Positions 9,844-42,893 of a DNA stretch of 64,000 nucleotides are shown here, piece by piece (position 1 is the first letter of the stretch; every line of letters starts with the position of its first letter). The notes beneath the pieces were generated by a model. It searched no databases and was not told where the DNA came from. It worked only from the letters and a program-made list of their open reading frames with translations. The stretch is taken from assembly GCF_002727125.1 (NCBI RefSeq), contig NZ_NHOA01000017.1, forward strand, positions 1-64,000, in the 5' to 3' direction. The position numbers were made by a program, and so were the translations under genes. This DNA comes from Halorubrum persicum. GTDB taxonomy: Archaea > Halobacteriota > Halobacteria > Halobacteriales > Haloferacaceae.

Positions 9844-10239
9844 TCAAGTATCGTTGTGACGCTCCCTGTACGTCTTCGCCGCTAAAAAGACATAGAGTGC
9901 GCCGATAGCCCGAATGCCCAAGCGGAATCGCTCGTTCCATTCTATCGACTCTGGACGCTCGTACAGGAACGCGGTGGCAAATCTCTGATACAGGTCGGGA
10001 AATAAGAGGACTATCGCGCCGAACACGCCGGTAAGATTCATCAGCAACGCGTATGCTCGCCCGTTAAAGAGTGAAAGCGCAGCTATCAGAACACCCTCCG
10101 ACCGGACTGCTGGACGTATCCACCCTCTCACTGTTCCCTCGTCTGGATTCGAAATCGCGAGTTTCTCGAAGAGCTCGACGATTTCGTCCGGGAACAGCGC
10201 TGAGATAGCGCCGAGGACACCGACGAGTGTTCGAATCAT
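9844..10239 (-). CDS. Small multi-pass membrane protein
   Basis: This 131-residue protein has an N-terminal hydrophobic stretch (LVGVLGAISALFPDEIVELF), a central one (ALLMNLTGVFGAIVLLFPDL) and a C-terminal one (AIGALYVFLAAKTYRER). The first and second share the pattern G-x-LFPD, which suggests an internal duplication. I chose the Met before IRTLVGV; an upstream Met 12 codons earlier is possible. The family is unknown to me. It sits inside the metal island, downstream of the DUF7521-like gene. Confidence 0.6.
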   Translation of the reverse strand: MIRTLVGVLGAISALFPDEIVELFEKLAISNPDEGTVRGWIRPAVRSEGVLIAALSLFNGRAYALLMNLTGVFGAIVLLFPDLYQRFATAFLYERPESIEWNERFRLGIRAIGALYVFLAAKTYRERHNDT

Positions 10240-23936: not shown

Positions 23937-26900
23937 CTACTTGACCAGGTCCATCATCGGTCGAAGTTCAGATTCAATTTCCGCCATCTGATCCGACACC
24001 CAATGGAACCGTTCCTCTACGCCCGCATCAGTAAACCGGAGTGAAGCTCGTACGTCACGATTTCGGTCATGTTGGAGGAGTGCGAGAGCGTACGCGAGCA
24101 TCTGCGGCCGATAGTGTTCCGCGAGCTCACCCGATGTCGTAGCAGAGAGGTCGTTGGTCTTGTAGTCGATAATGTGGAAGGCATCCGGTGTGACGAGCAG
24201 CCGGTCGATATCACCGACAATTCGCGACTCATCAATTCGGGCGACAACAGAATACTCGTCGTAAACCGCTTGGAGCTGGGAATCAGCCTCAACCTGGTCC
24301 ACAAATTCGACCGCATCAGCGGCATGATCGACAGCATCGCGGAGGTCAGGTTCTGTCGGCTCCTCACCGGACATCCGACTCAGACGGCGGATCAGGGTAG
24401 GCCACTCGTCTCTTGGAGGCCGAAGTTCGTTGATCCGGTGGACGACCGTCCCGAACGTCGTTGGACTCAGGCCCGCCGACTCCTCCCGTTGAGTGTAACT
24501 GTGACTGTCTGGAGACGCATCCGCCACCGCATTCACGAGCGTCGTGGCCGCGATCCATTTCGCCGGCGCGAGCGACGGTGGTGAAGGAATCGAGATCTCC
24601 GGCGCTGAATCAACAGCGTCGTCGTCAGTGTGCCAGTCTACTGGGCGCGGCGGCTTGCGAACGGTATAGCTGGCCCCATCCATCTCGCCACGGGCCTGTC
24701 CATCCCGAACCGCCTCGGCTACGAGAGCTCCGTCAAGGAGGGCTGGCTGTAACCAGTCCCGCCACCGGTCTGCGTCGTCGAAGGCTGCAGGCTCGCCCAG
24801 TTCGATTGTCCCGGACTCGTCGACGTCGATGTCATGCGTGCCGCAGAGAAGGAGGTGATCCCGCGTTCGTGTACACGCTACATAGAGGAGGCGTTTCGAC
24901 TCCGCCCGCTCCTGAGGACGCGACCGTCGGTCGGCGTACTCGTGGACGGCCGTCTTCTCGATGGAGAACGTATCGCCCGGATTCGGCCCACCGACCGCCG
25001 GCACCGGCGGCGCGTCATCAGTTCCATCCACGAGTCGAACGTACCCATAGTCGTCCACAGAGCGACCGAAGTTGAGGTCACTCCCGAGATCAGGGACGGT
25101 GACGATCGGGAACTCGAGTCCCTTCGCTGAATGGATCGTCATGATCCGGACGCCCTCGGCGTCACCGGGAATATCTGCCTCCCCCTCACGAGGGTCGATC
25201 TCGGCTTGGCGGTCGATCCGGTGGAGCAACCCGGCAGCTGTGTGAACACCGTTCTCGGTCCAAGTACGGACCTGATCGCGGAACTTCTCGACGTTCGCGA
25301 CGGCCTGCCGACCGCGTTCGTCAGCACTCACACTCGCCAGATACCCCGTGTCGTCGATCACCCGGGACAGCAGGCGGTTCCACGGGAGGACGCCCTCTTC
25401 GGACGGCGTCGCACAGCCGCTGAGGGTCCGCCACGTTGTGAGGAGGTCGAACGCGTCCGCGAGCTGTGGATCGTCCGTCTCGGCGAGTGCGTCCCATACT
25501 GAATCGGCCTCTGCGACAGCCGGTGCGAGGCGATCATCCGCGAATCCGAACAGCGGCGACCGAAGCACCCCGTAGAGGGAGACATCGTCCTGTGGATCAC
25601 CGAGTACTCGAAGCAGGTTCGTGAGCGCCTGGACCTCAGGCGTATCGTAGAACCCGACGCCACCGACGACAGTGTAGGGAATATTGTACTCCTCAAGGGC
25701 GCGCTGATACCGATCCAGATGGGTTCGCCGGCGGAGGAGAATTGCTGTGTCGTCGGGAGTAGCGTCACGATGGACACCTGTATCGGGGTCTTGGACTTGC
25801 GGCGGATCGTCGAACAGGTGGGTTAGTCGAGCAGCGAGCGCTTGCGCTTCGGCCTCGATGGTGTGGTCGAGCGCGCCTTCGGCGACCGGATGGTCGTCGC
25901 CGAAGAGCTCCGCTGCCGTATCGGCGTCGTCGGGGACAGCGAGATACTCGACACTCCCGGTCAGTCCCTCGATGTCCTCGATACGGTCGCGTTGTGTGGT
26001 CAACTCCTGCGGTGGCGCTTCGTGAGGTTCGTGGCTGTCACCCTCCGGCTGGAATAGGTACTCGAAGAGCTCGTTCAGGAACGACAGCGGCTCGTCCAGC
26101 GTCCGGAAGTTCCCGGAGAGTTCGAGCGCGGTCGGACTCTCGGCATCGCTGTCGGGAACGTCGTCGACCCCACGGGCTTCGTTGACAGTCTGGAGTTCCG
26201 CTCTCGCTTCCCCGAACGTCGTCACGTCGGCACCACGGAATCCGTAGATACTCTGTTTCTCGTCGCCGACCAGAAAGACGTTCGACGCCGTCTGCTCGTC
26301 GACGCCCGTGAGGAGCTTGACCAGCTCCCACTGGCGCGGATCCGTGTCCTGGAACTCGTCGACCATCACGGCCGCAAACTGCTCTCGTAGCCGCTCCGTG
26401 ACGGCATCGTTCGTTCGCAAGAACTCAAGGGTGGTCTCGATCACGTCGGGAAAGTCGAGCGTATCCCGGCGGTCCTTCTCGTCGGTGTAGGTTGCGAGGA
26501 CGTCGTCGAAAACCCGCATCAGAGCCAGCGCGTAGTGAGCGCTGTTCGCTTCGAGCTCACCGGGTGTGGTCTCGACCGCATCCGCGTGCGGTTCGACGGC
26601 ATCGATGACCGTGTCGATGGCGTCTTTCAGGTCGTCGTAGACGTCACCGTACTCACCCCAATCATCCCTGTCACCGACGACGTACCCCGAACTGCTGTAC
26701 AGGCCGCCGTTCTTCTTCTCACAGGCCTCGTAGAGCTCGAGAATTGCCCGCTGACAGTCCCGGGGATCGCTTTCCTCCAGGTCGTCCGAGAGTGTCGTCG
26801 CGACCTCGGTGAAGGTCTGGTAGGCTCGAAGGCCGTCCTCGTCGGCGATAGTGTCCTCACGGTCGACACGGCCCGCAATCGTGCGTAGCTGGTCAAGGAG

Positions 26901-27572
26901 TCCGTCCGCATACAGCGTCTGTCGGGCGTCGGCGACGTCGAGATCACAGACAAACTCCCAGCAGATATCGACGTAGTCGTCGGCCTCGGCGTCACGCCAC
27001 GCCTCGAGGACCGCCTCGCTCTGTGGGCGCTCATCGAGTAGTCCAGCGAGTACATCGACCAGCTGGTCACGACCCCAAAGCTGAGCGAGGAGCGCGACGT
27101 CGTCATCGTCCTGGTTGCGTTCGAGGTACTCCGTCACGACTTCGCGTTGGAGTGTCGCGGCGCCGTCTTCGTCGAGCACGTCGAAGCCGAGCGGGACCGG
27201 AGCCTCGACGGCCCGTTCTCGCAAGAGCCGCGTACAGAACGCGTGAATGGTGTGGACGTAGCCATCCTCCAGGTCGTCGAGGACGTTTCGCCAGCGGTGG
27301 TAGGCTTGTGGTGAGTCGACAGCCTCGAGCCGGTCGTACACCTCCTCCCGAACGCGCTCGGTCAGTTCGGCAGCAGCCTTTCGCGTGAAGGTGATCGTGA
27401 CGATATTCTTCGGGGTGAGCGACGGGTTCTCGGCCAGTATCGTCACGTACCGCTCGGTGAGCGTTGTCGTCTTCCCCGTCCCAGCGCCGGCAGTGATCGC
27501 GACGTTCCGGCCCTGGACGAGCGCGTCCTCCTGTTCCTCTGTGAGCTGAATCTCCTCGGGTTCCTCAGTCAT
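23937..27572 (-). CDS. AddA/RexA-like helicase-nuclease (UvrD type)
   Basis: The 1211-residue protein is a superfamily 1A helicase: Walker A AITAGAGTGKTTTLTERY near residue 30, motif II MVDEFQDTDPRQWELVKL, motif III LVGDEKQSIYGFRGADVTTF, and a closing ACTRTRDHLLLCG. Its C-terminus has a PD-(D/E)xK nuclease (RIVGDIDRLLVT and IIDYKTNDLSATTSGELAE), as in AddA and RecB. Its start overlaps the AddB-like gene by 8 bp. The pair would resect double-strand ends or degrade foreign DNA. Most haloarchaea use Mre11-Rad50 and HerA-NurA for that, so this accessory AddAB pair is probably defence-linked. Confidence 0.88.
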   Translation of the reverse strand: MTEEPEEIQLTEEQEDALVQGRNVAITAGAGTGKTTTLTERYVTILAENPSLTPKNIVTITFTRKAAAELTERVREEVYDRLEAVDSPQAYHRWRNVLDDLEDGYVHTIHAFCTRLLRERAVEAPVPLGFDVLDEDGAATLQREVVTEYLERNQDDDDVALLAQLWGRDQLVDVLAGLLDERPQSEAVLEAWRDAEADDYVDICWEFVCDLDVADARQTLYADGLLDQLRTIAGRVDREDTIADEDGLRAYQTFTEVATTLSDDLEESDPRDCQRAILELYEACEKKNGGLYSSSGYVVGDRDDWGEYGDVYDDLKDAIDTVIDAVEPHADAVETTPGELEANSAHYALALMRVFDDVLATYTDEKDRRDTLDFPDVIETTLEFLRTNDAVTERLREQFAAVMVDEFQDTDPRQWELVKLLTGVDEQTASNVFLVGDEKQSIYGFRGADVTTFGEARAELQTVNEARGVDDVPDSDAESPTALELSGNFRTLDEPLSFLNELFEYLFQPEGDSHEPHEAPPQELTTQRDRIEDIEGLTGSVEYLAVPDDADTAAELFGDDHPVAEGALDHTIEAEAQALAARLTHLFDDPPQVQDPDTGVHRDATPDDTAILLRRRTHLDRYQRALEEYNIPYTVVGGVGFYDTPEVQALTNLLRVLGDPQDDVSLYGVLRSPLFGFADDRLAPAVAEADSVWDALAETDDPQLADAFDLLTTWRTLSGCATPSEEGVLPWNRLLSRVIDDTGYLASVSADERGRQAVANVEKFRDQVRTWTENGVHTAAGLLHRIDRQAEIDPREGEADIPGDAEGVRIMTIHSAKGLEFPIVTVPDLGSDLNFGRSVDDYGYVRLVDGTDDAPPVPAVGGPNPGDTFSIEKTAVHEYADRRSRPQERAESKRLLYVACTRTRDHLLLCGTHDIDVDESGTIELGEPAAFDDADRWRDWLQPALLDGALVAEAVRDGQARGEMDGASYTVRKPPRPVDWHTDDDAVDSAPEISIPSPPSLAPAKWIAATTLVNAVADASPDSHSYTQREESAGLSPTTFGTVVHRINELRPPRDEWPTLIRRLSRMSGEEPTEPDLRDAVDHAADAVEFVDQVEADSQLQAVYDEYSVVARIDESRIVGDIDRLLVTPDAFHIIDYKTNDLSATTSGELAEHYRPQMLAYALALLQHDRNRDVRASLRFTDAGVEERFHWVSDQMAEIESELRPMMDLVK

Positions 27573-30500
27573 CGCTCATCACCGCCTCGATGTCCTCGTC
27601 GTCGCGAACACGGAGCGGAACGTACGCAGCCTCGTCCTCATGAACCTCGTCGACGAACTCCCGCTTGCGGTGATGGCGGACATCGCACGCCCGACGGTAG
27701 TCACAGTATCGGCAGTTCGCTCCGCGGGCGGACAGAAGCGTCGTGTGGAACCGTCCGTTGCCGATCGCCTCGTCGATCTGGCCCAACCACTCCGGAACGA
27801 CATCGTTCAGGAACCGGCGGAGTTCGACCTCTGAATCGAACTTCGATTCGACGCCGCGTGGAACCTTGAGGTCGTTTGGCGGTCGCACCTGATAGTACGT
27901 CGCCGAGAGCGAGCCCTGTTCGAAGAGATCACCGTCGACGACCTCGGCGGCAGCGAGCAGATAGATGGGGAGTTGGAACTTCGTGCCGCCGGTCGTCTTC
28001 GTCATATACGGTGCTCGACCAGTTTTGTAGTCGTAGAGCGTGAGCGTCGGTTGTTCGCCACCCTGGCTCACGTCAACGCGATCGATGTATCCCCGAATCG
28101 AGACAGTCGAGCCGTCCGGTCGCTCAACTGTGAACGGCCCAGCATCCGAGTCGGGAAGTCCCTCGCCGAACGGGGCCTCGAACAGGTGTGGGCGGTCAGC
28201 GCCGTCCCGCGAGAGTTCGTTGTCGAGGAAGGTAGCGAACAACCCCTGTTCCGGTGCGTCGTGAGGTTTGCTCCCGGCCTCGTACGGAGCACTCTCGCCG
28301 CCACCCAGGCCCGCGAACAGCTCCGCCTTCCACCGTTCGTAGAACAGGCCGTCGTACTCGAAGTCAGCATCCCGGAGTTCTTCGACGGCAATCTCGCGAA
28401 GGTGTATCGCCAGGTCGTTCCGGTCGAACTCGGTGAGGTCGACACCATCTTCGGTTTCGTCCTGTAGATCCGCGAAGAACCGTTCGAGGACGTCGTGGAC
28501 GTACGATCCGGTTTCGAGGGGCGTAGGGACGACCTCGACGTCGTCGGGATCCTCGATTCGGAGCACTTCGTCGGCGTAGAACTTGAACCCACACTCGACG
28601 TATCGCTCGATTCGACTCGCGCTGTAGGGTTCCCGCGCCGACGGAGGGTATACCTCATCGACCGTCTCGGGTTCTAAAACGCCGTCGTGTTCGGAGAGGC
28701 CAGTCGTTCCCCTGTTGTCCGCACAGTGGAGTCCCCGATCCGTGCGCTTGGTCTGCTCGGGGGAGAGATCACCTCGGTCGCCGGCGCGGCTGACTGCCGC
28801 ACGCCGGTCGGCCGTTGCAGCGACATGCCGCTGTAGGTCCTCGCGGGAGCCCACGCGGTCGTCGACGCCGTCTTCGGGTTCGATGCCGGTCACGCGCTGG
28901 AGTTCGTCGAGCACCGGTGACCGCACGACGGCGGATTCGTCGTCGCCCGTCTCTGGTGTGGTGATCGTGAGTTCGTCGACGTTCGCGAGGAGCGTCGCGA
29001 AGAGATAGCGCCCCCGGAGGCGCTCGTCGCCAGTGTCGAACCGCGGATGGGCGTCGGTCATCTCCTCGAAGAAGGCCGGGCGTTCCGGCGTTACCGGGAA
29101 ATGCTCGCTCGTCAGGCCCACGAGGAACACCTTCTCGAACGAGCGCATCCGGGCGTCGAGCAGCCCCATCACCTCAACGTGGCCGCCAGCAGCGCGCTGT
29201 GGAACCCGAATCGGCACGCCATCGAACGCACGGGTGAACAGTGCCAACGGAGAGAGGTCGCTATTGACTGCCGCCAGCGACTCGAACGAGGAGAGGACCT
29301 CGTCCACGAGGTCGTAGGCGCGCTGTTCGACGGCTTGCTCAGCGCCGCTGGCGTAGTCCTCCGTCGCCGCCTCCAAGCCGAATCGGTCGTCCAACAGTCG
29401 TCGGAGCGTCTCGGTTGCGGCTTCGATGTCCTCCGTTCGGAGCGTCTCTAGCGTGGCCAGCAGCTCCTCGATTAGGGGCGCCGCCTCGCCGTCGACGTCA
29501 TCGAGCAGGGGTGACACAGAAACCGTGTCACGCCGGCGAGCAGCTGCCGTGACGGCGTTGGCTTGGTCGGTGTCGACGACGTCAACCAGTGGATTTGCTA
29601 ACAGGGACGTGAGGTCCTCGGCCCGCGGATCCGGTTCGGCGAGGTTCAGGAGATCGTGGACGACACTCCCGGTGAACGTCCGGTTCAGCTGTGAGGCGGC
29701 GGTCGTGACGTGCGGGATGTCGAACGTATCGAACGTGTCCTCGACGTACCCCGAATAGGCCTCGGTCCCGGGGACGACGACGGCCAAGTCGTCGGGGTCG
29801 CGACCATCGGCCAACTCGGTTCGGAGCTCGCGAGCGACGAAGCGAATCTCGCGCTCAGGCGTCGGGAGTTCCCGCCACCGGAGGCCGTCTGGAACAGGGG
29901 CAGTATCCGGGTCCGGGCGGTAGAGTGACTCAGTGATCGTTCCGAAGGTCTGCCCCGACTGGTCGATCGGCTCGAGTTCCACTATTTCAAAGTCGAGCGC
30001 TTCGTAGACCTCCAGGGCATCTTCCGCAACAGTGTCGACTCCGCTCCGACCATCCTGGTGAAGCGGCAGCAGTGCAATCATCGGAAGTTCGTCGACGAGG
30101 CGTTCGATGAAGCGGCGTTCGACGGGGCGGAATTCGTGATACCCGGAGAGGACGACGACATCCAGTTCCGGGGAGAGTGTTGAGAGTGACTTCTCTGTCG
30201 CAGCCACTGCGTCGAACATTTCTCCCCGGGTACAGACCCACTCGTCGACGTAGTCAGCGTGGAGATTCCGGTAGTGTCGGTACGCATCGACAGTGGCTGT
30301 CGCGATACGGTCATCGAGAGCGGAGCCCTCGAACTCCGCTGCCAATGCGTCGGGGGTCCCGACGCCGGCGTCGTCGAAGAGTGAGAAACGGCTGCTGAAC
30401 GAATCCGCGAGAGCGGCCGAGGCGGGTTCGCCGGCGAGAGCGCCATCTGTTTCGGCTGTCGTTCGGTCAAGCGCATACTCCGCCAGCCGGCGGTTCAGCT

Positions 30501-30753
30501 GCCCGGAGAGGGGTTGAACCGGACCGTGGAGCTCCTCATACCACTCCCGAACGACCGCATCGAGCGTCTCGGCACGAAGACGGAGGGGTGCGTGGGACGC
30601 GGCCCAGCGATCCTCGACCATACCCCGGCGAGCGTCGTTCCGCGTTATGTAGAGAATACTCCCCAGCGAATCGGTGGCGATGTCATCAGCCCGCTGAAAT
30701 GCCCGTCGTTCCAATCGGGCGTGTTTCGGACCGGTGAGAAGCGTTGAATCCAT
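27565..30753 (-). CDS. AddB/RexB-like Fe-S nuclease-helicase subunit
   Basis: This 1062-residue protein lacks a Walker A but has the AddB layout: helicase-like body with LDVVVLSGYHEFRPVERRFI and VFLVGLTSEHFPVTPERPAF, then a nuclease domain (IRGYIDRVDVSQGG, YDYKTGRAPYMTKTTGGT near residue 909). Four cysteines fit an iron-sulfur cluster: one near residue 720 (YVECGFKF) and three in NCRYCDYRRACDVRH near 1017. It follows the small gene at 30861 and is coupled to AddA. As in bacterial AddB it should bind the other strand and lend nuclease activity to the complex. Confidence 0.85.
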   Translation of the reverse strand: MDSTLLTGPKHARLERRAFQRADDIATDSLGSILYITRNDARRGMVEDRWAASHAPLRLRAETLDAVVREWYEELHGPVQPLSGQLNRRLAEYALDRTTAETDGALAGEPASAALADSFSSRFSLFDDAGVGTPDALAAEFEGSALDDRIATATVDAYRHYRNLHADYVDEWVCTRGEMFDAVAATEKSLSTLSPELDVVVLSGYHEFRPVERRFIERLVDELPMIALLPLHQDGRSGVDTVAEDALEVYEALDFEIVELEPIDQSGQTFGTITESLYRPDPDTAPVPDGLRWRELPTPEREIRFVARELRTELADGRDPDDLAVVVPGTEAYSGYVEDTFDTFDIPHVTTAASQLNRTFTGSVVHDLLNLAEPDPRAEDLTSLLANPLVDVVDTDQANAVTAAARRRDTVSVSPLLDDVDGEAAPLIEELLATLETLRTEDIEAATETLRRLLDDRFGLEAATEDYASGAEQAVEQRAYDLVDEVLSSFESLAAVNSDLSPLALFTRAFDGVPIRVPQRAAGGHVEVMGLLDARMRSFEKVFLVGLTSEHFPVTPERPAFFEEMTDAHPRFDTGDERLRGRYLFATLLANVDELTITTPETGDDESAVVRSPVLDELQRVTGIEPEDGVDDRVGSREDLQRHVAATADRRAAVSRAGDRGDLSPEQTKRTDRGLHCADNRGTTGLSEHDGVLEPETVDEVYPPSAREPYSASRIERYVECGFKFYADEVLRIEDPDDVEVVPTPLETGSYVHDVLERFFADLQDETEDGVDLTEFDRNDLAIHLREIAVEELRDADFEYDGLFYERWKAELFAGLGGGESAPYEAGSKPHDAPEQGLFATFLDNELSRDGADRPHLFEAPFGEGLPDSDAGPFTVERPDGSTVSIRGYIDRVDVSQGGEQPTLTLYDYKTGRAPYMTKTTGGTKFQLPIYLLAAAEVVDGDLFEQGSLSATYYQVRPPNDLKVPRGVESKFDSEVELRRFLNDVVPEWLGQIDEAIGNGRFHTTLLSARGANCRYCDYRRACDVRHHRKREFVDEVHEDEAAYVPLRVRDDEDIEAVMSDD

Positions 30754-31292: not shown

Positions 31293-31841
31293 TTACTGTT
31301 CGAGGTAGGTCGTCACCTGTTTCTGAAGATGCTTGAACGCATCCTCGGCAGTGTCCACGTCAGAAGCCCCTGTGATGACTATTTTCCCGTTGGCAAAAAC
31401 CAAGAGAACGGCCGGGTGGTCAGCGGGCCGATAGATGAGACCGGGGAACTGTTCTGGCTCATATTCCACGGATTCCAAGCCCAACGCGATAGAGAGTGTA
31501 TTCAGATCGACCGGGTCGTCCAGCTGTGCCGTACAGACAACGTTCTGTACCGTGAATCCGGTTTCAGTCTCTGCATCTACGATGTCCAACTCAGACAGTG
31601 TTGTGAGGAACGCGTCGTTCGTTTCGTACAACTGTTCGAACGTAGAGCACCCACTGATGATGTATTTCCCACTCCGATAAACCGTGATGAGCGGACCACC
31701 CTCAACAAGCCGAAGATAGAGACCATGGTAGTTCGAAGGGTCGTATTCGGTGTATGGCAGATCCAAATCGGACTCGACCTCGGCGACGTCGAGTTCCACA
31801 CCCAAATCTCCCGACCCGACAGCGTTCGCAATAGATATCAT
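31293..31841 (-). CDS. tbp: Divergent TATA-box-binding protein in helicase operon
   Basis: The 182-residue protein has the TBP saddle with two repeats. The second is close to canonical: VEYEPEQFPGLIYRPADHPA then LVFANGKIVITGASDVDTAE. The first is divergent: PSNYHGLYLRLVEGGP then VYRSGKYIISG. The four phenylalanines that intercalate into the TATA box are kept in repeat two (FPG, VFANGK) but replaced by Tyr in repeat one (NYHG, VYRSGK). It overlaps the SNF2 gene by four bases, so it is made from the same mRNA. A special promoter or target choice is possible. Confidence 0.88.
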   Translation of the reverse strand: MISIANAVGSGDLGVELDVAEVESDLDLPYTEYDPSNYHGLYLRLVEGGPLITVYRSGKYIISGCSTFEQLYETNDAFLTTLSELDIVDAETETGFTVQNVVCTAQLDDPVDLNTLSIALGLESVEYEPEQFPGLIYRPADHPAVLLVFANGKIVITGASDVDTAEDAFKHLQKQVTTYLEQ

Positions 31842-34807
31842 TCGTCCTTTGCCTCTGTAGGAGAGACGACGTACGCCGCTGTTACTAATTCCGGTTCTTG
31901 GGGAGTAACGTGCTTCTCTTCCTCAAGCCTGGATAGCTCCTCTTCACGTTCTCGTCGTAGACTCTCGAGCTTCTGCTTCGCGTTCCCAATCGGCGCGGAC
32001 ATATCCGCACCCTGCTCAGCCCGCTGTTGGTACTGCTCTAACCGCTCCTCCCACTCTTCGATTTGCTCTTCGAAGTATCGCTCAGCGTGCTCACGTTTGA
32101 TTTCGATCTCCCGTTCTCGTTCGGTTCGGGCCTCTTCAGCAAACGACTCAACGTGCGTCCACGCCTCCATCTCTGCTGCCTCGTAGAGGTCCTCAGCCAT
32201 ACTCGAGAGCCGATCAACCTCGTGCGACAACGAGACGTCACTGGGAGCGACCGTCTTCGAGAGTTGAGGAACATCCGTCGTTACACTGCCATCCGGGCGA
32301 GCGTAGAGGCGAACGAACTTCTCAGTCACCACGTCGCCGGCACCGGAGACGTAGCCAAGTCGGTAATTGAACAGGATTCCAGGCGTTCGAGACGCCGTCG
32401 CAGCGACCTTCGTCGCAATTTCACCCTGGATCCGGTCGCTGTCCGAGCAGATTTCGATGAGCGACTCGACGAGAGGATGGTCAAGCGAGATGAACTCGAC
32501 ATCATCCTCCTCCATCGCGATATCCTTGGTGAACGTGGCCCGTGGGTACTGTCGTGCTACCTGATTTCCACTCAGGACCTCAGGGACATCCAACTGGAAC
32601 ACGTCCCCTTCCATCCTGGCCGGCCCCGGTCGAACGCCCTTGATAGAGCCGCCGAATTCGTCGAAGAACACTCGCACGAGCGTCTCGATATCGTCCTCGG
32701 ACACCTCGCCGTGTTGACTGCGTTCGATCACGTCGAGAATCTCATCGTCTTCGCCGGAGAGGTCGAAGCGGTCGCGAATCAGGAACTCGTTTTCGACGGT
32801 CTGAATCGCTTCGCGTTTCTCCTCGATGGTCGCCTCGATATCGGCGACGACACGTTCAGTCGGCTCCCCTTCAGCGATAGCCGCCATTATCGTCTCGTCC
32901 AAGTCGACATCCTCGAGGACGCGACCGAGGACATCTGAGCGCATCCCGAGGTCCGACTCGATCTGGTTCGTCTTCTCGATGAGCAGGTTGAGGATCTCGC
33001 TCTCGCGGGTATCGGCAAAGAAGAGATTCCGAATCTCGACCGTGTGCTCCTGGCCGTAGCGGTGGAGCCGCCCCATCCGCTGGTCGATCCTGATGGGATT
33101 CCACGGGAGGTCGTAGTTCACCATGATGTGGGCGAACTGGAGGTTGAGCCCTTCCTGGGCGGCGTCAGTCGCGAGCATCAGGTTGGCCTCCTCCTCGAAT
33201 TTGCTCATCTCTTCCCGTCGACGGGACTGCTCGAGGTCGCCGTACACCTGGGCGACATCATGATCAGCGAAGACCTCGTCACGTAGATACTCCAGCGTGT
33301 CCGTGTATTCGGTGAAGATCAGGATTTTCTCGTCGGGGTCCTCTGAGAGAATGCGGTCGACGAACTGCCGGAGCAATCGGGCCTTCGAGTCCGTCTCGAT
33401 GTTCTTGGCCTGCTGCCAGAGCTGTTTCACGCGGTCCAGCTCCTGCTGGACTTGCGACTGATTGAGCGTAATCGTGACCGTCTCAAGCGCCTCCTCGACC
33501 CGAGCGCGTTCTGCGTCGGTGAGCGTCTCGGGTTCGGTACTATACCGCGGAATGAGGTCCTGAACCTCGTCAGGGAGGTCTTCTGCGACGGCGTCGTTCT
33601 GAATCGCCCGCATCCGGTTTTCGAGGGACTTCCGGATCGCGTAGATACTCGAGACCAGCCGCTTCTGGTAGATGACCATCGTGAACCCCGCCGCCTGGTT
33701 CTCCTCCTGCTGGGCGAGGTTGTAGTACTCGCGGATGTACTCGGTGACGTCGTCGTACAGCTTCCGCTCCTCGCGAGTCATCTCGACCGGGAGTGCCTCG
33801 ATGTTCTTCTCGGGGAACATTCGGGTCCCGTCGGTCTCGTACATATCGTCCTTCAGCCGGCGGATCATCAGGTCCTCAAGCGCCTCGGGACTGATCTGCG
33901 ACTCGTGGCTGAAGCGATACGGATCGAGCAGGCTCACGAGGAAGTAGAACTGGTCTGATTTCCCCTTATGCGGGGTCCCGGTGAGCAACAGCAGCGCATC
34001 GGAGTTGTCGGCGACGGCCTCACCAACTTGGTATCGCTGTGTCCGCTCGATGGAGTCATCGCTCGACCGTCTGGCCGTAAGGTGATGGGCCTCGTCGAAG
34101 ACCGCGACGTCCCACTCCTCGTCGAGATTCTGGAGGGCATCGAGGACGGAGACGCGGTCCGACTCGGGGTCGTCGGTGGTCTGCTTCGCGAAGTCGATGG
34201 AGGTGATGATGAGGTCCTCTTGCTTCCAGACGTTCTGGCTGGGGTGGGACTTTCGGTGTGTACGAACCGTCTCGCGGTCGTAGATGACGAAGTTGCGGTC
34301 GAACTTCTCGCGCATCTCCTCCTGCCACTGGACGGTCAGCGGCGCCGGCGCGACGATGAGCACCCGGTCGGCGCGGTCGCGAGCGATGAGCTCTTCGATG
34401 ACGATGCCGGCTTCGATGGTCTTCCCGAGGCCGACCTCGTCGCCGATGAGGTAGCGGTGGTCGTAGGAGTTGAGGATCTCGTAGGCGGCCTGTACCTGGT
34501 ACGGTTCGATCTCGATGCGGTTGCTGGTCAGCGAGAGGAATCGATCGTACTTGTAGGCGAGATCCAGCCGGATCGCCCGCTCTCGAAGGTCGTAGTGGAG
34601 TGGGGCGTCGGACTGGCCTGCTGCGAGGCGATCGACGAGCGAGTCGAGTTTCTCGATGTGAGGGAGGCCGCTGGGGAGTTTGCGGAGCTGGCCCTCCGAG
34701 GTGTAGACGTGGAGGAGATGCCCACCGTTGGGCCGTTGCTCGATTTTCGTAATCTCTCCACGCCCGCCGGCGAACTTGACTTGATCGCCGACCTCGAATT
34801 GGTTCAT
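31838..34807 (-). CDS. SNF2-family helicase/translocase
   Basis: The 989-residue protein starts with a small SH3-like segment (FEVGDQVKFAGGRGEITKIE). SNF2 motifs follow: GDEVGLGKTIEAGIVIEELI near residue 127, VFDEAHHLTARRSSDDSIE near 238, LLTGTPHKGKSDQFYFLVS, and a helicase-C domain (ILIFTEYTDTLEYLRD, then ATDAAQEGLNLQFAHIMVNY and QRMGRLHRYGQEHTVEIR). A long charged coiled coil forms the end. It overlaps both the methyltransferase and the TBP gene by 4 bp. Type ISP, DISARM (DrmD) and similar systems use such translocases with N6-methyltransferases. Confidence 0.88.
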   Translation of the reverse strand: MNQFEVGDQVKFAGGRGEITKIEQRPNGGHLLHVYTSEGQLRKLPSGLPHIEKLDSLVDRLAAGQSDAPLHYDLRERAIRLDLAYKYDRFLSLTSNRIEIEPYQVQAAYEILNSYDHRYLIGDEVGLGKTIEAGIVIEELIARDRADRVLIVAPAPLTVQWQEEMREKFDRNFVIYDRETVRTHRKSHPSQNVWKQEDLIITSIDFAKQTTDDPESDRVSVLDALQNLDEEWDVAVFDEAHHLTARRSSDDSIERTQRYQVGEAVADNSDALLLLTGTPHKGKSDQFYFLVSLLDPYRFSHESQISPEALEDLMIRRLKDDMYETDGTRMFPEKNIEALPVEMTREERKLYDDVTEYIREYYNLAQQEENQAAGFTMVIYQKRLVSSIYAIRKSLENRMRAIQNDAVAEDLPDEVQDLIPRYSTEPETLTDAERARVEEALETVTITLNQSQVQQELDRVKQLWQQAKNIETDSKARLLRQFVDRILSEDPDEKILIFTEYTDTLEYLRDEVFADHDVAQVYGDLEQSRRREEMSKFEEEANLMLATDAAQEGLNLQFAHIMVNYDLPWNPIRIDQRMGRLHRYGQEHTVEIRNLFFADTRESEILNLLIEKTNQIESDLGMRSDVLGRVLEDVDLDETIMAAIAEGEPTERVVADIEATIEEKREAIQTVENEFLIRDRFDLSGEDDEILDVIERSQHGEVSEDDIETLVRVFFDEFGGSIKGVRPGPARMEGDVFQLDVPEVLSGNQVARQYPRATFTKDIAMEEDDVEFISLDHPLVESLIEICSDSDRIQGEIATKVAATASRTPGILFNYRLGYVSGAGDVVTEKFVRLYARPDGSVTTDVPQLSKTVAPSDVSLSHEVDRLSSMAEDLYEAAEMEAWTHVESFAEEARTEREREIEIKREHAERYFEEQIEEWEERLEQYQQRAEQGADMSAPIGNAKQKLESLRREREEELSRLEEEKHVTPQEPELVTAAYVVSPTEAKDE

Positions 34808-37800
34808 CCTTCTGTAGCTTCCTCAATAATCTGAATATCAGCCTCGTCGAGATTGAACAGTTCGTAGACCTTATTATCGATCTGAGAGTCAAGGTCGCTG
34901 ATTTTCACATCCAGTTTTTCAGCGTGTTCTTTTCTATCGAGGTAGCGCTCAAGATCGTCCTCTATATCATCGATTGCGGGTAAAGTGAGTTCCTCCAGTC
35001 TATCAACTAACGATGTTGTGGAAGTTGCGTTGTCCCGGAAGTTGGCAAAGCCGTCTCCCTCACTCACAGCATATTCGACGAATTCGGCGAGCAGGGAACG
35101 AGTCCGGTCGTCAAGTCCGACAAACTCCATTGCAGGGATCAATTCTGTCTCCGTATAGCCCCAACGATCAGTTTCGAATTCTTCTTCGTCTTCAGGTTTA
35201 TAACGAGCAGAGAGGCTAATTACTACGTCTGACCCGTTTTCTGTGACTGAAACGGAACCAACTCGAAGACTGTCCCGTGTCTCTGTAGTCTCCGCAATGA
35301 TTGACTCGGCAACTCCTTCTGGGGGCTGATATATCCCGATATCGGCAAGTTTCCGACCATCATCATATGGACGAATATAATCAAGCAGATCCAGATTAAG
35401 TGACTCCCTCGTTTGTCGGGATTCAGTCAACTCTTCGGCAAGGTCAGCTAATTCTTCGACGTCCTCATCCTGTTCATCCGCCAGAGATGTGGGGACAGGG
35501 AGCCCTTTGATAGCGTGTGTGAAAGACCGTTGGTAGCCACCTCGGTACTCAGACGTTACGAATTGATAGTACCAATTGACAGGGGTTGAGTTCAGAACTG
35601 CCAAGAGAGCATAGGAATCCGAGGGGACAAAGTAACAGGTATTAACCATATAATATCCCGACGTATCCATAGCGAAGCTACACTCTTTTGAGATATCAGG
35701 ATAGACTATTTTCGGGTTCTCAAAGAAGGGTTCATACTCTTCCTGATCCTGCTGGAGCTCGTACCATTCTTCATCTGTTGCGGTATCTCCAATCTGATCC
35801 TTGTACTTCGATAGATGATTCTTCACCGCAGGATAGTCGTCGATATTGACACCGACTTTGGAATAAATTAGATACCTCGATTGGTTGTCAATATGATACC
35901 GAGAGAGGTCAGTCCCTTTCAGAAGCGGTTTGATTATTTCAGCTGAACTCTCGTCTTGTGATACCAATTCGTTTCGCTTCTTTTCGTCAATAACAAAAGC
36001 GTCATTCCCGCCTGTTACGACGCCTCTCCCGAGACCATCAACTGCATTCTTGACTCCCGCAACCTCTGTTACATATTCAACTAGTTCGTTAGAGCGATTG
36101 TCGAGTGTCCTTTTGACCCGTTCTTCATCGACAGACCCCATTGACCACTTGTCCGAGTCGAAATATTCGGCAGGTAGTGACACCGCCAGTTCTTCAAACT
36201 TTGCGGACAGGTCATCAAAATCCAGACTCTCGAATTTTGCTGCTCGAACATCTTCGACGAATCTCTCTCGAGCGTCTATGATGAATATCGCTGGGTACGT
36301 CGATATACCCGGGAATACTTCTAGATCACCGAAGTCTAGCACCTGTTCGACTTGATAATTTGTCAATAGTTCTCTGAGGTTTTCTCCATACTTAGCCCTC
36401 ATCCACTTATTAGAAACAATCACCCCATATTTGGAGGAACAAAGCTCCAGACTCCGCTCAATAAAGTATGCATACAAGTCCACGCGGGTATCATGAACGT
36501 CATATCGCGACGAGAGGAACGGCTTTAGCGGTTTGATTTGTTCCATCCGGACATACGGGGGGTTCCCAATAACTGCGTCAAATCCAGGATCGGATACACT
36601 GTTCCCGTCCACGTCGTAGAAGACCTCTGGATACTCCAGCTTCCAATGGAAGTAATCATTCTCATCTGCCCATTTTTGAGCGTCTTCGAACCACTGCAGA
36701 CCCTCGATTGCGGCCCACTTTTCATCGTCTTCCAAGGCCGCAGCCATGCGTTGATAGGCGTCGGAGGGAAGATTATCCAGACCAAATTCTTCGGCAGTAT
36801 GGACATTCGTCATCGCTTCAAGCCGCTGCCGAAGCTTGTTCCGTTCGAACTCGTCGTACTTGGCCTCCATCTCCTTGACGTCAGCGAGTTCCTGGTTCTC
36901 GATGGCGATGAAGTCCTGATAGATCCGCATTAGCTGTTCGATGGTCCCCTTCCGAGCCACACCGAAGTCAGCGAGTGTCGCGTTCTGCCCATCACCACCA
37001 GCATCAGACTCCAGCTCTTCAATTTCCTCGATGTCGCTACCGACAAGCGAGTTGCCCGTCTTCAGGTGGTGATCTAAGAACGCAAGCGGTTGTTCAGCCG
37101 CGAGCGTCCGAAGCCAAAGGGACACCTTTGCAAGCTCGACAGCGAGCGGATTCAGATCGACGCCATAGATACAGCGCTGGGCGACCTGCCGGCGGGCCCA
37201 GTTGATGTCGTGCTCTTCGTCGACGGTTTCGATTCCCTGCTGGGCGGCCTGCTTTTCTTGGGCGTCGATGATCTCACGCGCCAGATAGTCGATAGCACTC
37301 GTCAGGAAGTGACCGCTTCCCATCGCGGGATCGAGGATCTTTAGGTCGAAGATGCGTTCTGCGAATTCCGCTGCAAATCCACGCTCACCCCGGGCACTCT
37401 GTGCCATGAGGTCGTTCCGGATATCCGTGACGAGCGGTTCCAGCGTCTCTTCGACGATGTACTCAACGACGTACTCCGGCGTGTAGTACGAGCCCGTGGC
37501 TTTGCGTTCCCCAGACCCGGTCGTAAGGTGGATTTCACCCTCCTCGACGATCACCTCGTCACCCTCGCCGGCAGGGACGTACTCACCGTCCTCCAGCGCG
37601 AGCGGTTCGTCAGCGACGTCGAGCTGATACTCGAGAAGCCCCTCGTAGATGCTCCCCAGGTGGCGGACGTCCAGCGACGAGTAGTCGACGAAGATCTTCC
37701 CGCCGCCGTTGCCGTTCTGACTCCGGGTGAGTAGTTCGATGACCTCAGCGAGGTAGGCGTCCCCGACCTGGTGGGTCGCGAGGAACCGGGCTTCGACGCT

Positions 37801-38940
37801 GTCGTCCTCGTCCGGGTCAGTTCTGAACAGTCCGCCGTTGTACGCTGGGATGTAAAGGTCCTCCTCAGGGATACCGCGCGACTGACTGCCCTGGTCGATG
37901 AGTTTGAACAGCTCGTCCAGTCGGTCCCAGAGGTTGTCTTGCCAGTCGCGATACTTCGGATTCGGGCTGTCGAGTTCTTCAGCGACGTCCTGCTTGAGTG
38001 TATTCAGACTGTAGGATTCCTCGTAGATCTCGTTGTTCGTGTCGAGCAGGTCACGACCCTCACTTTCTGCGTAGAGCACGAAGATGAGCCGGTAGAGGTA
38101 GATGAGCGAACTGTCGTGAATGAGGTCGAGATCGTCCTCGGAGAGGTCGTTGTCCGGGTACTGCATGAATCCCTCCGAGAGCACCTTGATCGCCTCGTAG
38201 ATGTTGTCCTGGAGGTCCTCTCCCAACTCTTGGGCGAAGACATTAGACTCGTCGTAGACTTCATCGAGGAAGCACTCGCCGCTGGAGTCCTCGAGGAATG
38301 CGCCGTGCCTGAAGAAGAGGTAGAAGTATTTGAAATCCTCAAGATCGCCTTTTTCGAGGACGGTCGGCAGGTCGATTTCGTAGTAGGAGTCGAGGCGGTG
38401 GCTCGTCGGACCGTAGTAGAGCCGCCACTTCTTCCCGTCAGTGAGGACGGCCCACCGCGCCGGCGTCTCCTGCAGGTAGACGTGAATCTGGTAGCTCGGG
38501 TTCTCGAAGTCCCGCTCGTGTTCCCCGCTCCCGCGGGTATCGAGCGGACGACCCCAGCGCTTGGCGTCCGCGACGGCGACGGCGTCCTTGTAGAAATCGC
38601 CACCTTCCTCGCGGCGCTCGAACGCACCGCGTGCGGCGTCCTCGGTCTCGAAGAAGCCATAGTCGGGACGGCGCTGGGTCCGGCTGGTACTCTCTTCGAC
38701 CTCGAAGGGGATACCCAGTTTCCGGAACATCGGCCGGATAAACTTCTCCTCGAGCTGGGACTCGTTACGCTTGGGAGCCGTACCCTTCTCGCGCTCCCAC
38801 AGGTCCATGATGTCCGCTTTCGCCTCGCGGAGGTCCTCGTCGCTAAGCTCGTCCCACGCCTCGGTTTCGGGGAGGTGCTCGTCCAGGTAGTAGTTCGAGA
38901 ACAGGTCGCGATTCGTCCGATAGGTGAGTGCCGTTTGCAT
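34804..38940 (-). CDS. Type IIG-like N6-adenine methyltransferase-nuclease
   Basis: This 1378-residue fusion has an N-terminal nuclease-like domain (RRPDYGFF near residue 88, then AVADAKRWGRPLD near 120, a PD-(D/E)xK-like spacing). The methyltransferase core has ILDPAMGSGHFLTSAIDYLA near 536, GVDLNPLAVELAKVSLW near 595 and FDAVIGNPPYVRMEQ near 790. The last 550 residues are a TaqI/Eco57I-like target domain. The last third of the gene, which encodes the target domain, is visibly AT-richer than the first two thirds. It is coupled to the SNF2 gene (4-bp overlap) and to the AbrB-like gene (3 bp). Confidence 0.88.
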   Translation of the reverse strand: MQTALTYRTNRDLFSNYYLDEHLPETEAWDELSDEDLREAKADIMDLWEREKGTAPKRNESQLEEKFIRPMFRKLGIPFEVEESTSRTQRRPDYGFFETEDAARGAFERREEGGDFYKDAVAVADAKRWGRPLDTRGSGEHERDFENPSYQIHVYLQETPARWAVLTDGKKWRLYYGPTSHRLDSYYEIDLPTVLEKGDLEDFKYFYLFFRHGAFLEDSSGECFLDEVYDESNVFAQELGEDLQDNIYEAIKVLSEGFMQYPDNDLSEDDLDLIHDSSLIYLYRLIFVLYAESEGRDLLDTNNEIYEESYSLNTLKQDVAEELDSPNPKYRDWQDNLWDRLDELFKLIDQGSQSRGIPEEDLYIPAYNGGLFRTDPDEDDSVEARFLATHQVGDAYLAEVIELLTRSQNGNGGGKIFVDYSSLDVRHLGSIYEGLLEYQLDVADEPLALEDGEYVPAGEGDEVIVEEGEIHLTTGSGERKATGSYYTPEYVVEYIVEETLEPLVTDIRNDLMAQSARGERGFAAEFAERIFDLKILDPAMGSGHFLTSAIDYLAREIIDAQEKQAAQQGIETVDEEHDINWARRQVAQRCIYGVDLNPLAVELAKVSLWLRTLAAEQPLAFLDHHLKTGNSLVGSDIEEIEELESDAGGDGQNATLADFGVARKGTIEQLMRIYQDFIAIENQELADVKEMEAKYDEFERNKLRQRLEAMTNVHTAEEFGLDNLPSDAYQRMAAALEDDEKWAAIEGLQWFEDAQKWADENDYFHWKLEYPEVFYDVDGNSVSDPGFDAVIGNPPYVRMEQIKPLKPFLSSRYDVHDTRVDLYAYFIERSLELCSSKYGVIVSNKWMRAKYGENLRELLTNYQVEQVLDFGDLEVFPGISTYPAIFIIDARERFVEDVRAAKFESLDFDDLSAKFEELAVSLPAEYFDSDKWSMGSVDEERVKRTLDNRSNELVEYVTEVAGVKNAVDGLGRGVVTGGNDAFVIDEKKRNELVSQDESSAEIIKPLLKGTDLSRYHIDNQSRYLIYSKVGVNIDDYPAVKNHLSKYKDQIGDTATDEEWYELQQDQEEYEPFFENPKIVYPDISKECSFAMDTSGYYMVNTCYFVPSDSYALLAVLNSTPVNWYYQFVTSEYRGGYQRSFTHAIKGLPVPTSLADEQDEDVEELADLAEELTESRQTRESLNLDLLDYIRPYDDGRKLADIGIYQPPEGVAESIIAETTETRDSLRVGSVSVTENGSDVVISLSARYKPEDEEEFETDRWGYTETELIPAMEFVGLDDRTRSLLAEFVEYAVSEGDGFANFRDNATSTTSLVDRLEELTLPAIDDIEDDLERYLDRKEHAEKLDVKISDLDSQIDNKVYELFNLDEADIQIIEEATEG

Positions 38941-38943
38941 ACG

Positions 38944-39135
38944 TTATAGTGGAGTGACGATGAGGAACTGGTCCGTGTCCTTGCTGTCGATGATAGCGTG
39001 AGCGACGTCCTTCGTATCGGCAACGTCGACGTCGACATCGTCGCCGATCCCGGCTTCAAGCATTTCGAGCTCAGAACCCGAGATGTTCACCCGCCCGGAG
39101 TTGCCTGAATTCCGGGCGATTGTTTTTCGAGTCAT
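38944..39135 (-). CDS. AbrB/SpoVT-like small DNA-binding protein
   Basis: The 63-residue protein starts MTRKTIARNSGNSGRVNISG and continues ELEMLEAGIGDDVDVDVADT, the AbrB swapped-hairpin pattern (R-x-N-I-S, then L-E-A-G-x-G-D-x-V-x-V). It lies three bases before the methyltransferase gene and would be first in the operon. A perfect palindrome overlaps its TATA box. It is the probable autorepressor of the methyltransferase-SNF2-TBP-AddAB unit. An upstream in-frame Met six codons earlier is possible. Confidence 0.65.
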   Translation of the reverse strand: MTRKTIARNSGNSGRVNISGSELEMLEAGIGDDVDVDVADTKDVAHAIIDSKDTDQFLIVTPL

Positions 39136-39160: not shown

Positions 39161-39190
39161 CCATTATATAGTCTTTACTTAGACTATTCC
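39161..39190 (-). promoter_or_regulatory. Promoter with overlapping perfect inverted repeat
   Basis: The arms ATAGTCT (39168-39174) and AGACTAT (39181-39187) are perfect inverted copies with a 6-bp spacer. They overlap the minus-strand TATA box (ACTATATAATGG, read on the minus strand) about 30 nt before the AbrB-like start. Binding here would block transcription of the restriction-helicase operon. The probable ligand is the AbrB-like or the TBP product, which is inference. Confidence 0.6.
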
Positions 39191-39455: not shown

Positions 39456-40226
39456 TCAGCGGGTTTGAATCCTAAAGAAGATGGCTAAGCCGATTAAGAG
39501 GACGCCACCAACACCAAAACCAACCATCGATGGGTCCGGTAGTGATGGAATGAACCTCTTCACCTGAGGAGTAAGAATGAACCCGCCGGCATATCCTCCG
39601 ACGGAGATGTATCCAGCAGCCAATAGGCGGACGAACCACTGTTCCACAATTGTATGCGAGCGGTGATCAGCATCTTCAGCTGGACGAGGATCAACGATTT
39701 CTGGGTCGGGTTTCTCTCGCTTCAAGTATCGCCATTCATCGAGATACATGCGAACAGGGAGAACCGATTCGATCTCATTCAAGATAGCATACCGCGCTTT
39801 GTTCAGCCGGCGGTATGATTGAAGACTTTGATACCAAAAGTAGCAAATCAGACTACCGAATCCTGATGCGAAGAGAACGATCGCAGCGTTAGTGGTCGTG
39901 AGATTGCCGCGGGCGAGGGCAAAGAGACCGGCCAGTATCGAGGTTAAAATCAGACCGAAAAAGCGGTTCATCTGGACTCGCTGATTGGCTGTCTCGATCG
40001 CAACCTCCCCGTAATGTATGTACTGCTCCATCAGTCGATTCTTCTCGTCCTCACTTAGATTAGCCAGCGGTCCAGTTGTAACATCTTCCTCCTCAGATGG
40101 CTCAGCAGGGTCCCCTCCGGTGACCTCTTCAGAGTGTTCAGGTTCTGTTTCGGGCGTGTCTCCATCGTCAGTATCGGCGCCATCCTCTGAGAGATCAACC
40201 GCCGCTTCGTCGGTTGAATCAGGCAT
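39456..40226 (-). CDS. Multi-pass membrane protein, RipA/8xMP-like
   Basis: This 256-residue protein has an acidic N-terminal arm of about 75 residues. Two membrane helices follow (FFGLILTSILAGLFALARG and IVLFASGFGSLICYFWYQSL), then a cytosolic LNKARYAILNEIESVLPVRM, and two more helices near the end (FVRLLAAGYISVGGYAGG, VGFGVGGVLLIGLAIFF). The W-Y-x-SL-x-SYRRLNKARY-x-ILNEIE-x-LP section matches what I recall of RipA-family octameric membrane proteins. It overlaps the TIR gene by eight bases (ATGCCTGA), so it is a direct operon partner. It may be the pore-like effector of a TIR signal. The start at 40226 gives that overlap. Confidence 0.7.
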   Translation of the reverse strand: MPDSTDEAAVDLSEDGADTDDGDTPETEPEHSEEVTGGDPAEPSEEEDVTTGPLANLSEDEKNRLMEQYIHYGEVAIETANQRVQMNRFFGLILTSILAGLFALARGNLTTTNAAIVLFASGFGSLICYFWYQSLQSYRRLNKARYAILNEIESVLPVRMYLDEWRYLKREKPDPEIVDPRPAEDADHRSHTIVEQWFVRLLAAGYISVGGYAGGFILTPQVKRFIPSLPDPSMVGFGVGGVLLIGLAIFFRIQTR

Positions 40227-41160
40227 ATTCAGCGAGTGCGTCGACAAGCGAGGCCTTTCGCCATCCTACCTGAGTATCTGCGACTTCTTGGATTTTCTCG
40301 GGGACCTTCGATTGTCCCTCTGGAATGATTGCGATCACCGGCTTGTCCAGTTCATCGGCGAGTTCCAGCTCCTCCGGGATCCAAGTGCTGTGAGCACCGT
40401 ACATTCCACTACTTACGACGACAACCGACGCCGTTTTCATCTGGTTCCGGAGTTCAGAGCGAAGGGCAGACTCGGTATCCACGGGCAGGGGGTCAGTTGA
40501 AGGGACACTATGATTCTGCCACTTGAGCGACGGAACCTCATCAAGGAAATCAACGATACGCTCGTAGTGTTCGTCATACTCCCACGAGTGGGAGACAAAA
40601 ACGTTGTACTGCTTGTCCTCAAGTCGAGTTGCAGCGCGTGCTAAGCGAGGGAGTGATTGCCCAGTATTTCCGCCTGAGGAGGAAGAGGACTCTTGAGTCG
40701 ACGAGCCTGCAGAGGCCAAGGCTTCCAGCCCTTTGTAGGCAGCATATAGGAGCAAAGCACCGCCAGCGATTTTTTGTCCAGACGAGAGCCCCTGCTGGTT
40801 CTGAGTGTCGGTAGAACTGCGGCTCAGGGAATCGTCGGTCGGGACAAGGCCCGACTGTTGGTCATTCGGCTCGAAGAGCGACGGTTGAGAGGAACTGAGC
40901 TCAGGGAGACTGTTATCCCCAGATTGCGTGACTGTATAAACGGGGCCGAGTTCTCGAACGGTGAACTCCTTTCCGAGATCGTTCCCTTTGTAGGTCGGCA
41001 GTAGGCGGTCTCCATCATCGCGATAGAATCCGGTAGGTAGATCGTTCACAGCTGACTTCAGAACGAATCGAACAGCTGATTCGGGGTTTGGACTGCCACG
41101 AATATCATCAAACGCGGCCTCCCAGGTGGTTTTCAATGGGGAGGAGGTGTCTTGGCTCAT
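40219..41160 (-). CDS. TIR-like (ThsB-type) domain protein
   Basis: The 313-residue protein has an N-terminal domain of about 110 residues and a Ser-rich linker. A hydrophobic segment (KIAGGALLLYAAYKGLEALA, near residue 140) may be a membrane anchor. A C-terminal TIR-like domain starts near 180 (YNVFVSHSWEYDEHYERIVD, then SVVVVSSGMYGAHSTWIPEE and ADTQVGWRKASLVDALAEYA). That pattern is the DUF1863/ThsB type of Thoeris systems, which make a signal from NAD. The final KASLVDAL matches the ThsB end. Its operon partner is a multi-pass membrane protein. No canonical ThsA gene is adjacent. Confidence 0.82.
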   Translation of the reverse strand: MSQDTSSPLKTTWEAAFDDIRGSPNPESAVRFVLKSAVNDLPTGFYRDDGDRLLPTYKGNDLGKEFTVRELGPVYTVTQSGDNSLPELSSSQPSLFEPNDQQSGLVPTDDSLSRSSTDTQNQQGLSSGQKIAGGALLLYAAYKGLEALASAGSSTQESSSSSGGNTGQSLPRLARAATRLEDKQYNVFVSHSWEYDEHYERIVDFLDEVPSLKWQNHSVPSTDPLPVDTESALRSELRNQMKTASVVVVSSGMYGAHSTWIPEELELADELDKPVIAIIPEGQSKVPEKIQEVADTQVGWRKASLVDALAEYA

Positions 41161-41288
41161 AACCGTATGAACAATCCGTTTTTAAATAGTATAAGTTCTT
41201 CCCCCCTGGAATATCGGCAGATTTGGATTCCGCATCAGAGAGGACCATAGTACTAAACGGGTAAGCCGTCAACAATTCGCATATAGTT

Positions 41289-41726
41289 ATGAGCTTCAAC
41301 AGCAGATCTTCAAGCAACCGTCGGAGCGAATACCGACTGTTCATCTCGCACTCTTGGGAGTACAGCGACGAGTACAATCGGATGGTAGAACTACTTCGCG
41401 ACTACCCGAATTTCAGTTTCCGGAACTACTCAGTACCGAAGGTGGATGAGATCGATGCTGACACCGAAGAGGAGCTGGAACAGGCGCTCCGGGAAGACCA
41501 GATCAAGCCAGCTACGGTCGTAATAATACTCGGGGGAATGTACGTAGCACACAGCAAATGGATCAAGAAAGAAACTATTTTAGCTGAAATCGAGAGCAAG
41601 CCTATTCTGGGTGTTACACCGCGCGGAAACGAGCAGATGCCCAATTTCGTTGAAGACCACGCAGATCAGATCGTGGGGTGGCAAGGAAAGAGTGTGGTAG
41701 AGGGAATTCGAGACCTGGCTGATTGA
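41289..41726 (+). CDS. Stand-alone TIR-like (ThsB-type) protein
   Basis: The 145-residue protein is a single TIR-like domain: YRLFISHSWEYSDEYNRMVE, LLRDYPNFSFRNYSVPKVDE, VVIILGGMYVAHSKWIKKET and the ending ADQIVGWQGKSVVEGIRDLA. It is very close to ThsB of Thoeris defence. It resembles the C-terminus of the divergent gene at 40219 in the same order (FVSHSWEYDEHY, SSGMYGAHSTW, VGWRKASLVDAL). Thoeris systems can hold several ThsB proteins that sense different phages. The gene is 128 bp from the other TIR gene and is transcribed away from it. Confidence 0.85.
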   Translation: MSFNSRSSSNRRSEYRLFISHSWEYSDEYNRMVELLRDYPNFSFRNYSVPKVDEIDADTEEELEQALREDQIKPATVVIILGGMYVAHSKWIKKETILAEIESKPILGVTPRGNEQMPNFVEDHADQIVGWQGKSVVEGIRDLAD

Positions 41727-41747
41727 GTTGATGAGAGCGTGGATGAA

Positions 41748-42803: not shown

Positions 42804-42893
42804 TTCCGTATCAGAAATTGCTCTGTTTCGTTATAAATGATAGGCGACCACCACTATGTAGATATATAAAACCAGCATACCACAAGACGGAAT

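Follow-up and report, generated by a model that had tools for sequence, protein, structure and literature searches.

What is a paralogue of a general transcription factor doing in a defence-type operon? The question is raised by a 64,000-nucleotide stretch of Halorubrum persicum DNA (contig NZ_NHOA01000017.1, positions 1 to 64,000; hereafter the window), the minus strand of which carries, at 31293..31841, a gene for a TATA-binding protein (TBP) of 182 amino acids that lies behind genes for a SNF2-family helicase and a type IIG-like methylase/restriction enzyme. A preliminary description of the locus rightly recognized a TBP paralogue in a defence-type operon, and rightly reported that the start of its gene overlaps the stop of the SNF2 gene by 4 bp (plus-strand TCAT at 31838..31841, which is ATGA on the minus strand). 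It had, however, placed the gene in the middle of the operon; the TBP gene is the last of the conserved genes and forms the 3′ end of the operon, while the genes further downstream vary among relatives. Based on the comparisons described here, we conclude that this TBP belongs to a class of variant TBPs associated with restriction-modification (RM) genes, and that the class probably serves as a dedicated regulator of defence genes, not as part of one helicase.

The product of 31293..31841 matched the Pfam TBP family (PF00352) over both repeats at 142.6 bits and the NCBIfam TATA-box-binding protein model NF001593 at 211 bits. Its AlphaFold model had a predicted local distance difference test (pLDDT) score of 94, and the top Foldseek matches were all TBPs, with template-modelling scores of about 0.78-0.89. 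Both TBP repeats and the saddle fold are therefore present. The four intercalating phenylalanines of a canonical TBP are not, since the corresponding residues are Tyr38 and Tyr55 in the N-terminal half and Phe132 and Phe149 in the C-terminal half (a pattern that we abbreviate YYFF, with FFFF for the canonical residues); the C-terminal stirrup, EYEPEQFPG, is intact. The protein is thus a variant and not a canonical TBP, and it shares the YYFF pattern of a Halobacterium protein identified below as TbpC, which places it in the TbpC-like subclass. One other TBP is encoded in the same genome, the core gene on contig C87.

To define the genomic setting of such proteins, we fetched about 95 TBP neighbourhoods of up to 20 kb each and classed 110 TBPs by their four intercalating positions. 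An RM marker was a gene for an RM methylase or for a type I R/SNF2 translocase, and control genes were those located >5 kb from any TBP. Among these loci, which were selected for TBPs similar to that of the window and whose neighbours supplied the RM markers for the 300-bp count, 58 of the 81 TBPs with a changed N-terminal pair and an intact C-terminal pair were located ≤300 bp from an RM gene, and 67 of the 81 were within 3.5 kb. By contrast, none of the 21 FFFF TBPs, core or accessory, was within 300 bp of one (Fisher test, 6e-10), and the figure for control genes was 14/696. Removing the SNF2 clade of the window left 42 of 64 TBPs adjacent to RM genes. Independently of the markers, a Pfam scan gave the same picture: of 50 dereplicated TBP neighbours, 14 carried N6_Mtase and 14 Eco57I, and neither family appeared in the list of 25 obtained for 50 control genes. 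The TbpC-like class is associated with RM genes, and it is both optional and exchangeable.

The proteins encoded beside the class include HsdM/HsdR, type IIG enzymes, PglZ/BREX proteins and GmrSD, as well as solo methylases and viral RM modules. Its members are found on plasmids, chromosomes and tailed viruses, either reading in the same direction as the RM gene, at the tail of the module, or divergently from it; the latter layout, over a short intergenic region, accounts for 11 of the 58 RM-adjacent TBPs and is a common arrangement of regulators. Annotated plasmids agree, in that TBPs accompany a type I R gene in Halobacterium DL1, a BREX-5 PglZ gene in Halorarius halobius, and methylases in Halorussus aquaticus and Halobaculum roseum. 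On the TBP tree, the FFFF proteins formed one supported clade, and RM types were mixed across the remainder, in keeping with a generic role; within that remainder the SNF2-TBP clade was well supported. When 393 genomes of the phylum were searched, only core-like scores were returned outside Halobacteriales, and no class member was seen there, the key residues of those hits being unchecked. Two TBPs of about 275 amino acids (L075:8877-9701 and L098:10921-11754) are extended at the N terminus by about 75-90 residues that look winged-helix-like by eye, with no significant Pfam match in L075; these are possible fusions of a helix-turn-helix domain to a TBP.

Tyr-Tyr was by far the commonest replacement among all 81 TBPs with an altered N-terminal pair. 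In the 54 YYFF TBPs, a group defined by tyrosine at both N-terminal positions, the C-terminal stirrup EYEPEQFPG was 100% invariant, and identity to core TBP was 49% in the C-terminal half versus 32% in the N-terminal half. Ratios of nonsynonymous to synonymous substitution (dN/dS) of 0.07-0.15 indicate purifying selection on the class and, together with the invariant stirrup, point to a maintained variant rather than decay. Known TBP complexes suggest by homology that the retained C-terminal half, the stirrup of which is a contact for transcription factor B (TFB), is the one that faces TFB.

The link with the SNF2 gene from which the question arose is one instance of this broader pattern, which extends beyond what the preliminary description had claimed. 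A homologue search of 392 Halobacteriales genomes found all 17 TBPs of the window clade (at least 63% identity) directly behind the same SNF2 gene, in five haloarchaeal families, so that the adjacency is not confined to a single replicon; in one of the 17 (G068), only a remnant of the SNF2 gene precedes the TBP, which has been kept. The junction has the same -4 overlap in about ten other fetched loci, and ranges from -8 to 0 in the rest. The TBP is not, however, the obligate member of the operon that it had been taken for. When the search was reversed, 18 of 30 full-length SNF2 homologues with at least 75% identity had a TBP downstream, one had it only upstream, between the methylase and SNF2 genes, and 10 of the 29 examined had no adjacent TBP. 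The two genes have also diverged unequally: where SNF2 proteins are 97-98% identical, the adjoining TBPs are 96, 91 or 74% identical, and at about 89% SNF2 identity the adjoining TBP has only 50% identity and belongs to another subclade. Three operons of the SNF2 type (L067, L071 and L072; 81-90% SNF2 identity) carry a TBP of another subclade in the same slot, and judging from these sequences the TBP has been replaced within an otherwise conserved operon. Two loci contain methylase-TBP-SNF2-TBP operons (L037, TBPs at 9580-10128 and 13091-13648; L044, at 2821-3369 and 6310-6858), in which the TBPs are altered in complementary halves, FFSP between the methylase and SNF2 genes and YYFF at the end of the operon. 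Two TBPs were also present in L050 and L036.

The window operon lies entirely on the minus strand. Its first gene (38944..39135) encodes a 63-amino-acid protein that is AbrB-like by eye, is 55-97% identical in most relatives whose upstream region is intact, and had no match in a Pfam scan. There follows the gene for the type IIG-like restriction-methylase (34804..38940; 1378 amino acids), which combines an Eco57I adenine methylase (131.8 bits) with a TaqI_C specificity domain (68.1 bits), matches the PADLOC models DrmMI and REase_MTase_IIG, and has, by eye alone, a PD-(D/E)XK-like N-terminal nuclease motif. This gene overlaps by 4 bp that of the SNF2-family helicase (31838..34807; 989 amino acids), a protein of the BrxHII/DrmD/RapA type that scored 567 bits with the PADLOC model for BrxHII and 396 bits with that for DrmD; its NCBIfam DrmD score of 449 is under the cut-off of 610. 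The nearest PDB sequence to the helicase was RapA (227 bits), with Mot1 at 72-75 bits over the helicase core only, HEAT repeats not having been searched for separately. A structure model of the helicase (pLDDT 72, pTM 0.45) was too weak and was not used.

Upstream of the first gene is a 21-bp putative promoter/operator block, TAGTCTAAGTAAAGACTATAT (39166..39186, minus strand), in which a dyad, TAGTCT-N6-AGACTA, runs into a TATA-like TATATAA. Across 11 TBP-bearing loci that retain their upstream region intact, the block has 0-2 mismatches and its flanks are unalignable; its exact sequence has one match in the genome and had zero chance matches in 100 shuffles of the window. We considered the TBP as the reader of this operator, but a comparison of TBP-bearing with TBP-lacking operons did not support this: it is the AbrB-like gene, and not the TBP, that the operator accompanies. 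Operons with a TBP have AAGTAA at the centre of the dyad somewhat more often than those without, but this is confounded by kinship. Given its position before the AbrB-like gene and its retention in TBP-lacking operons, the dyad and TATA block is a candidate for AbrB-like autoregulation of the RM system. Downstream of the TBP gene (23937-30753) is an AddAB-like pair, comprising a UvrD/PD-(D/E)XK helicase-nuclease and an AddB-like nuclease, which only some relatives share; in Halorientalis marina (L138), where the TBP is identical, the pair again adjoins the TBP gene, and it is present likewise in L036. Upstream (39456-44660) are genes for an 8xMP membrane protein, a TIR/ThsB-like protein (40219-41160) and a GmrSD-like protein (42894-44660), so the TBP operon sits within a defence island.

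The pNRC100 plasmid of Halobacterium NRC-1 encodes an orthologue of the window TBP with 67% identity (111987-112532), which ends a methylase-helicase-TBP operon (L137, NC_001869.1 103476-112532) just as in the window, except that the methylase gene is split by the transposase ISH27-2. From its plasmid location and its YYFF signature, which fits the description of TbpC by Becker et al., we identified this orthologue as TbpC; the record gives no gene name. One report lists tbpA-D on pNRC100 (PMC2121645), and Becker et al. 2014 (PMC4230888) describe a large tbpC-like class that lacks the N-terminal phenylalanine pair and whose role is unknown. The TbpC-like TBPs described there have lost the same pair as the window TBP, and in the portions of the two papers that were consulted no link to RM genes is drawn. 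Nor did we find a TBP-RM link in haloarchaea elsewhere among the open-access papers searched.

Viruses carry members of the class, too. A search of 50,697 phage records gave three matches at 1e-5, two of which are the same virus. In HRTV-9 the TBP follows a type IIG enzyme, and in HJTV-2 it is accompanied by a winged-helix protein, an N4-cytosine methylase and Eco29kI; an IMG/VR contig (L218) is a third viral case of a TBP beside RM genes. The RM marker set had no match near six distinct FFFF viral TBPs. The IMG/VR viral contigs L220-L226 encode core-like TBPs with four phenylalanines and no RM neighbours, which represent a different, canonical viral kind.

How might a TBP serve an RM module? 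We give about an even chance to the reading that the TbpC-like TBP is a portable, RM-borne TBP that tunes the transcription of defence genes through host TFB, a mechanism that we infer from the observed association. The protein would be a working TATA-box factor, with DNA contacts altered on one half and the TFB-docking half intact. Made together with the RM genes, it would enter initiation complexes with host TFB and RNA polymerase and adjust the transcription of RM genes, those of its own operon and perhaps other defence promoters, such that restriction in a new host would be kept at a low level until modification had taken hold. It would then be a functional archaeal analogue of the bacterial RM controller (C) proteins, derived from a general transcription factor and not from a helix-turn-helix repressor. 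A wider picture, which we put forward tentatively, is that of a haloarchaeal branch of mobile, RM-dedicated TBPs, half-modified TATA factors that control defence genes, have been spread by plasmids and viruses, are swapped between RM types, and sometimes occur as YYFF and FFSP forms in one operon, possibly as a pair.

Several observations weigh against such a controller. About 14 of the 81 TBPs with a changed N-terminal pair have no RM marker inside 3.5 kb. The most serious caution is that the dyad operator (1-2 mismatches) is kept in four loci without a TBP and travels with the AbrB-like gene; as both persist without the TBP, the operator is not assignable to it. No promoter motif common to different TbpC-type operons was seen, and no direct evidence was obtained for the TBP binding or regulating any promoter. 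Finally, deletion of tbpC in NRC-1 is reported to have had no apparent phenotype (Coker and DasSarma 2007, PMC2121645); the apparent silence and dispensability of tbpC may be due to the ISH27-2 break in the operon.

Other explanations were weighed against the same data. The tight translational overlap of SNF2 and TBP genes in many loci and the well-supported SNF2-TBP clade would suit a TBP that is physically built into the SNF2/RM machine, either as a DNA-bending partner or as the substrate of a Mot1-like ATPase. We consider this quite improbable. The TBP is optional beside SNF2, falls to 74% identity where SNF2 is 97-98% identical and to 50% at about 89% SNF2 identity, has been exchanged for one of another subclade in three operons, and belongs to a class whose members also accompany type I, solo methylase and BREX-5 genes; optionality, range of partners and unequal divergence together argue against a fixed subunit. 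As the helicase is moreover RapA-like rather than Mot1-like, a Mot1-like complex, which the preliminary description had suggested, was rejected. Its other suggestion, that at defence promoters the TBP redirects transcription, fares better and is compatible with the data. It is unlikely, to a lesser degree, that the TBP serves defence as an effector or guard, which would occupy TFB or viral promoters and so damp virus transcription, or would replace a host TBP disabled by a virus. A half-altered saddle with an invariant C-terminal stirrup, and the location of the class mostly in conflict loci, are what such a role might produce, and TBPs also occur in the bacterial TOTE and TALON conflict systems (PMC12458937). 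However, the association is specific to DNA-modification genes, viruses themselves carry the TBP with their own RM genes, and the saddle is under purifying selection with no signs of arms-race divergence.

Since most partners are adenine methylases, one could also imagine that the TBP sustains transcription of the host or of the operon after methylation by the module has altered promoters, the modified half-saddle tolerating a methylated TATA box or B recognition element. The N4-cytosine methylase paired with the HJTV-2 TBP speaks against this, and we regard it as very unlikely. Less probable again is that the TBP is a passenger, accessory TBPs being common on haloarchaeal mobile DNA and having hitchhiked into the vicinity of RM genes. 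Megaplasmids often carry defence islands and often carry TBPs, and some TBPs are broken; but the FFFF TBPs, accessory ones included, are never beside RM genes (0/21), gene overlaps recur over families, and dN/dS is about 0.1. Hitchhiking was rejected by comparison with the FFFF TBPs and the distant control genes.

The nearest functional parallel to the controller that we propose is in bacteria, where the C proteins of type II RM systems are small, portable helix-turn-helix DNA-binding proteins encoded in, or divergent from, the RM genes. The TbpC-like TBPs resemble them in being encoded with RM genes and in moving together with these, and differ in that the protein is a TBP, in that the modules are of type I, IIG, BREX and type II, and in that regulation is presumed. 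As to the module itself, the SNF2 protein and methylase score best on models of BREX type 5/BrxHII, DISARM DrmD-DrmMI and type IIG systems. Unlike in BREX and DISARM, the core sets were not found around the operon: among seven operon and flanking proteins scanned, there were BrxHII-like and PglX/DrmMI-like proteins only, without the BREX core (PglZ, BrxC, PglX), and DrmD-like and DrmMI-like proteins only, without the DISARM core (DrmA, DrmB, DrmC). The window TBP matched no PADLOC model. The eukaryotic Mot1-TBP pair likewise joins a SNF2 ATPase with a TBP, here encoded by adjoining genes, but the window helicase matches Mot1 in its core alone and the partner is not obligate. TOTE (TPR, OB, TBP, effector) and TALON likewise place a TBP in a defence-type gene cluster; TALON is reported from Bacillati, largely Chloroflexota, with TPR-cold-shock proteins (PMC12458937), none of which was seen here, where the TBP is instead a paralogue of the archaeal general factor beside RM genes.

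These findings give a concrete home in RM modules to the TbpC-like TBPs, orphans among the general transcription factors that had for a long time been regarded as perhaps without function, and they suggest that part of the haloarchaeal TBP expansion was driven by defence modules and not by environmental regulation. If our reading is correct, the class could serve as a marker for finding new haloarchaeal defence operons, and archaeal RM systems would be controlled via the basal transcription machinery, a mode of control that, to our knowledge, has no counterpart in bacteria.
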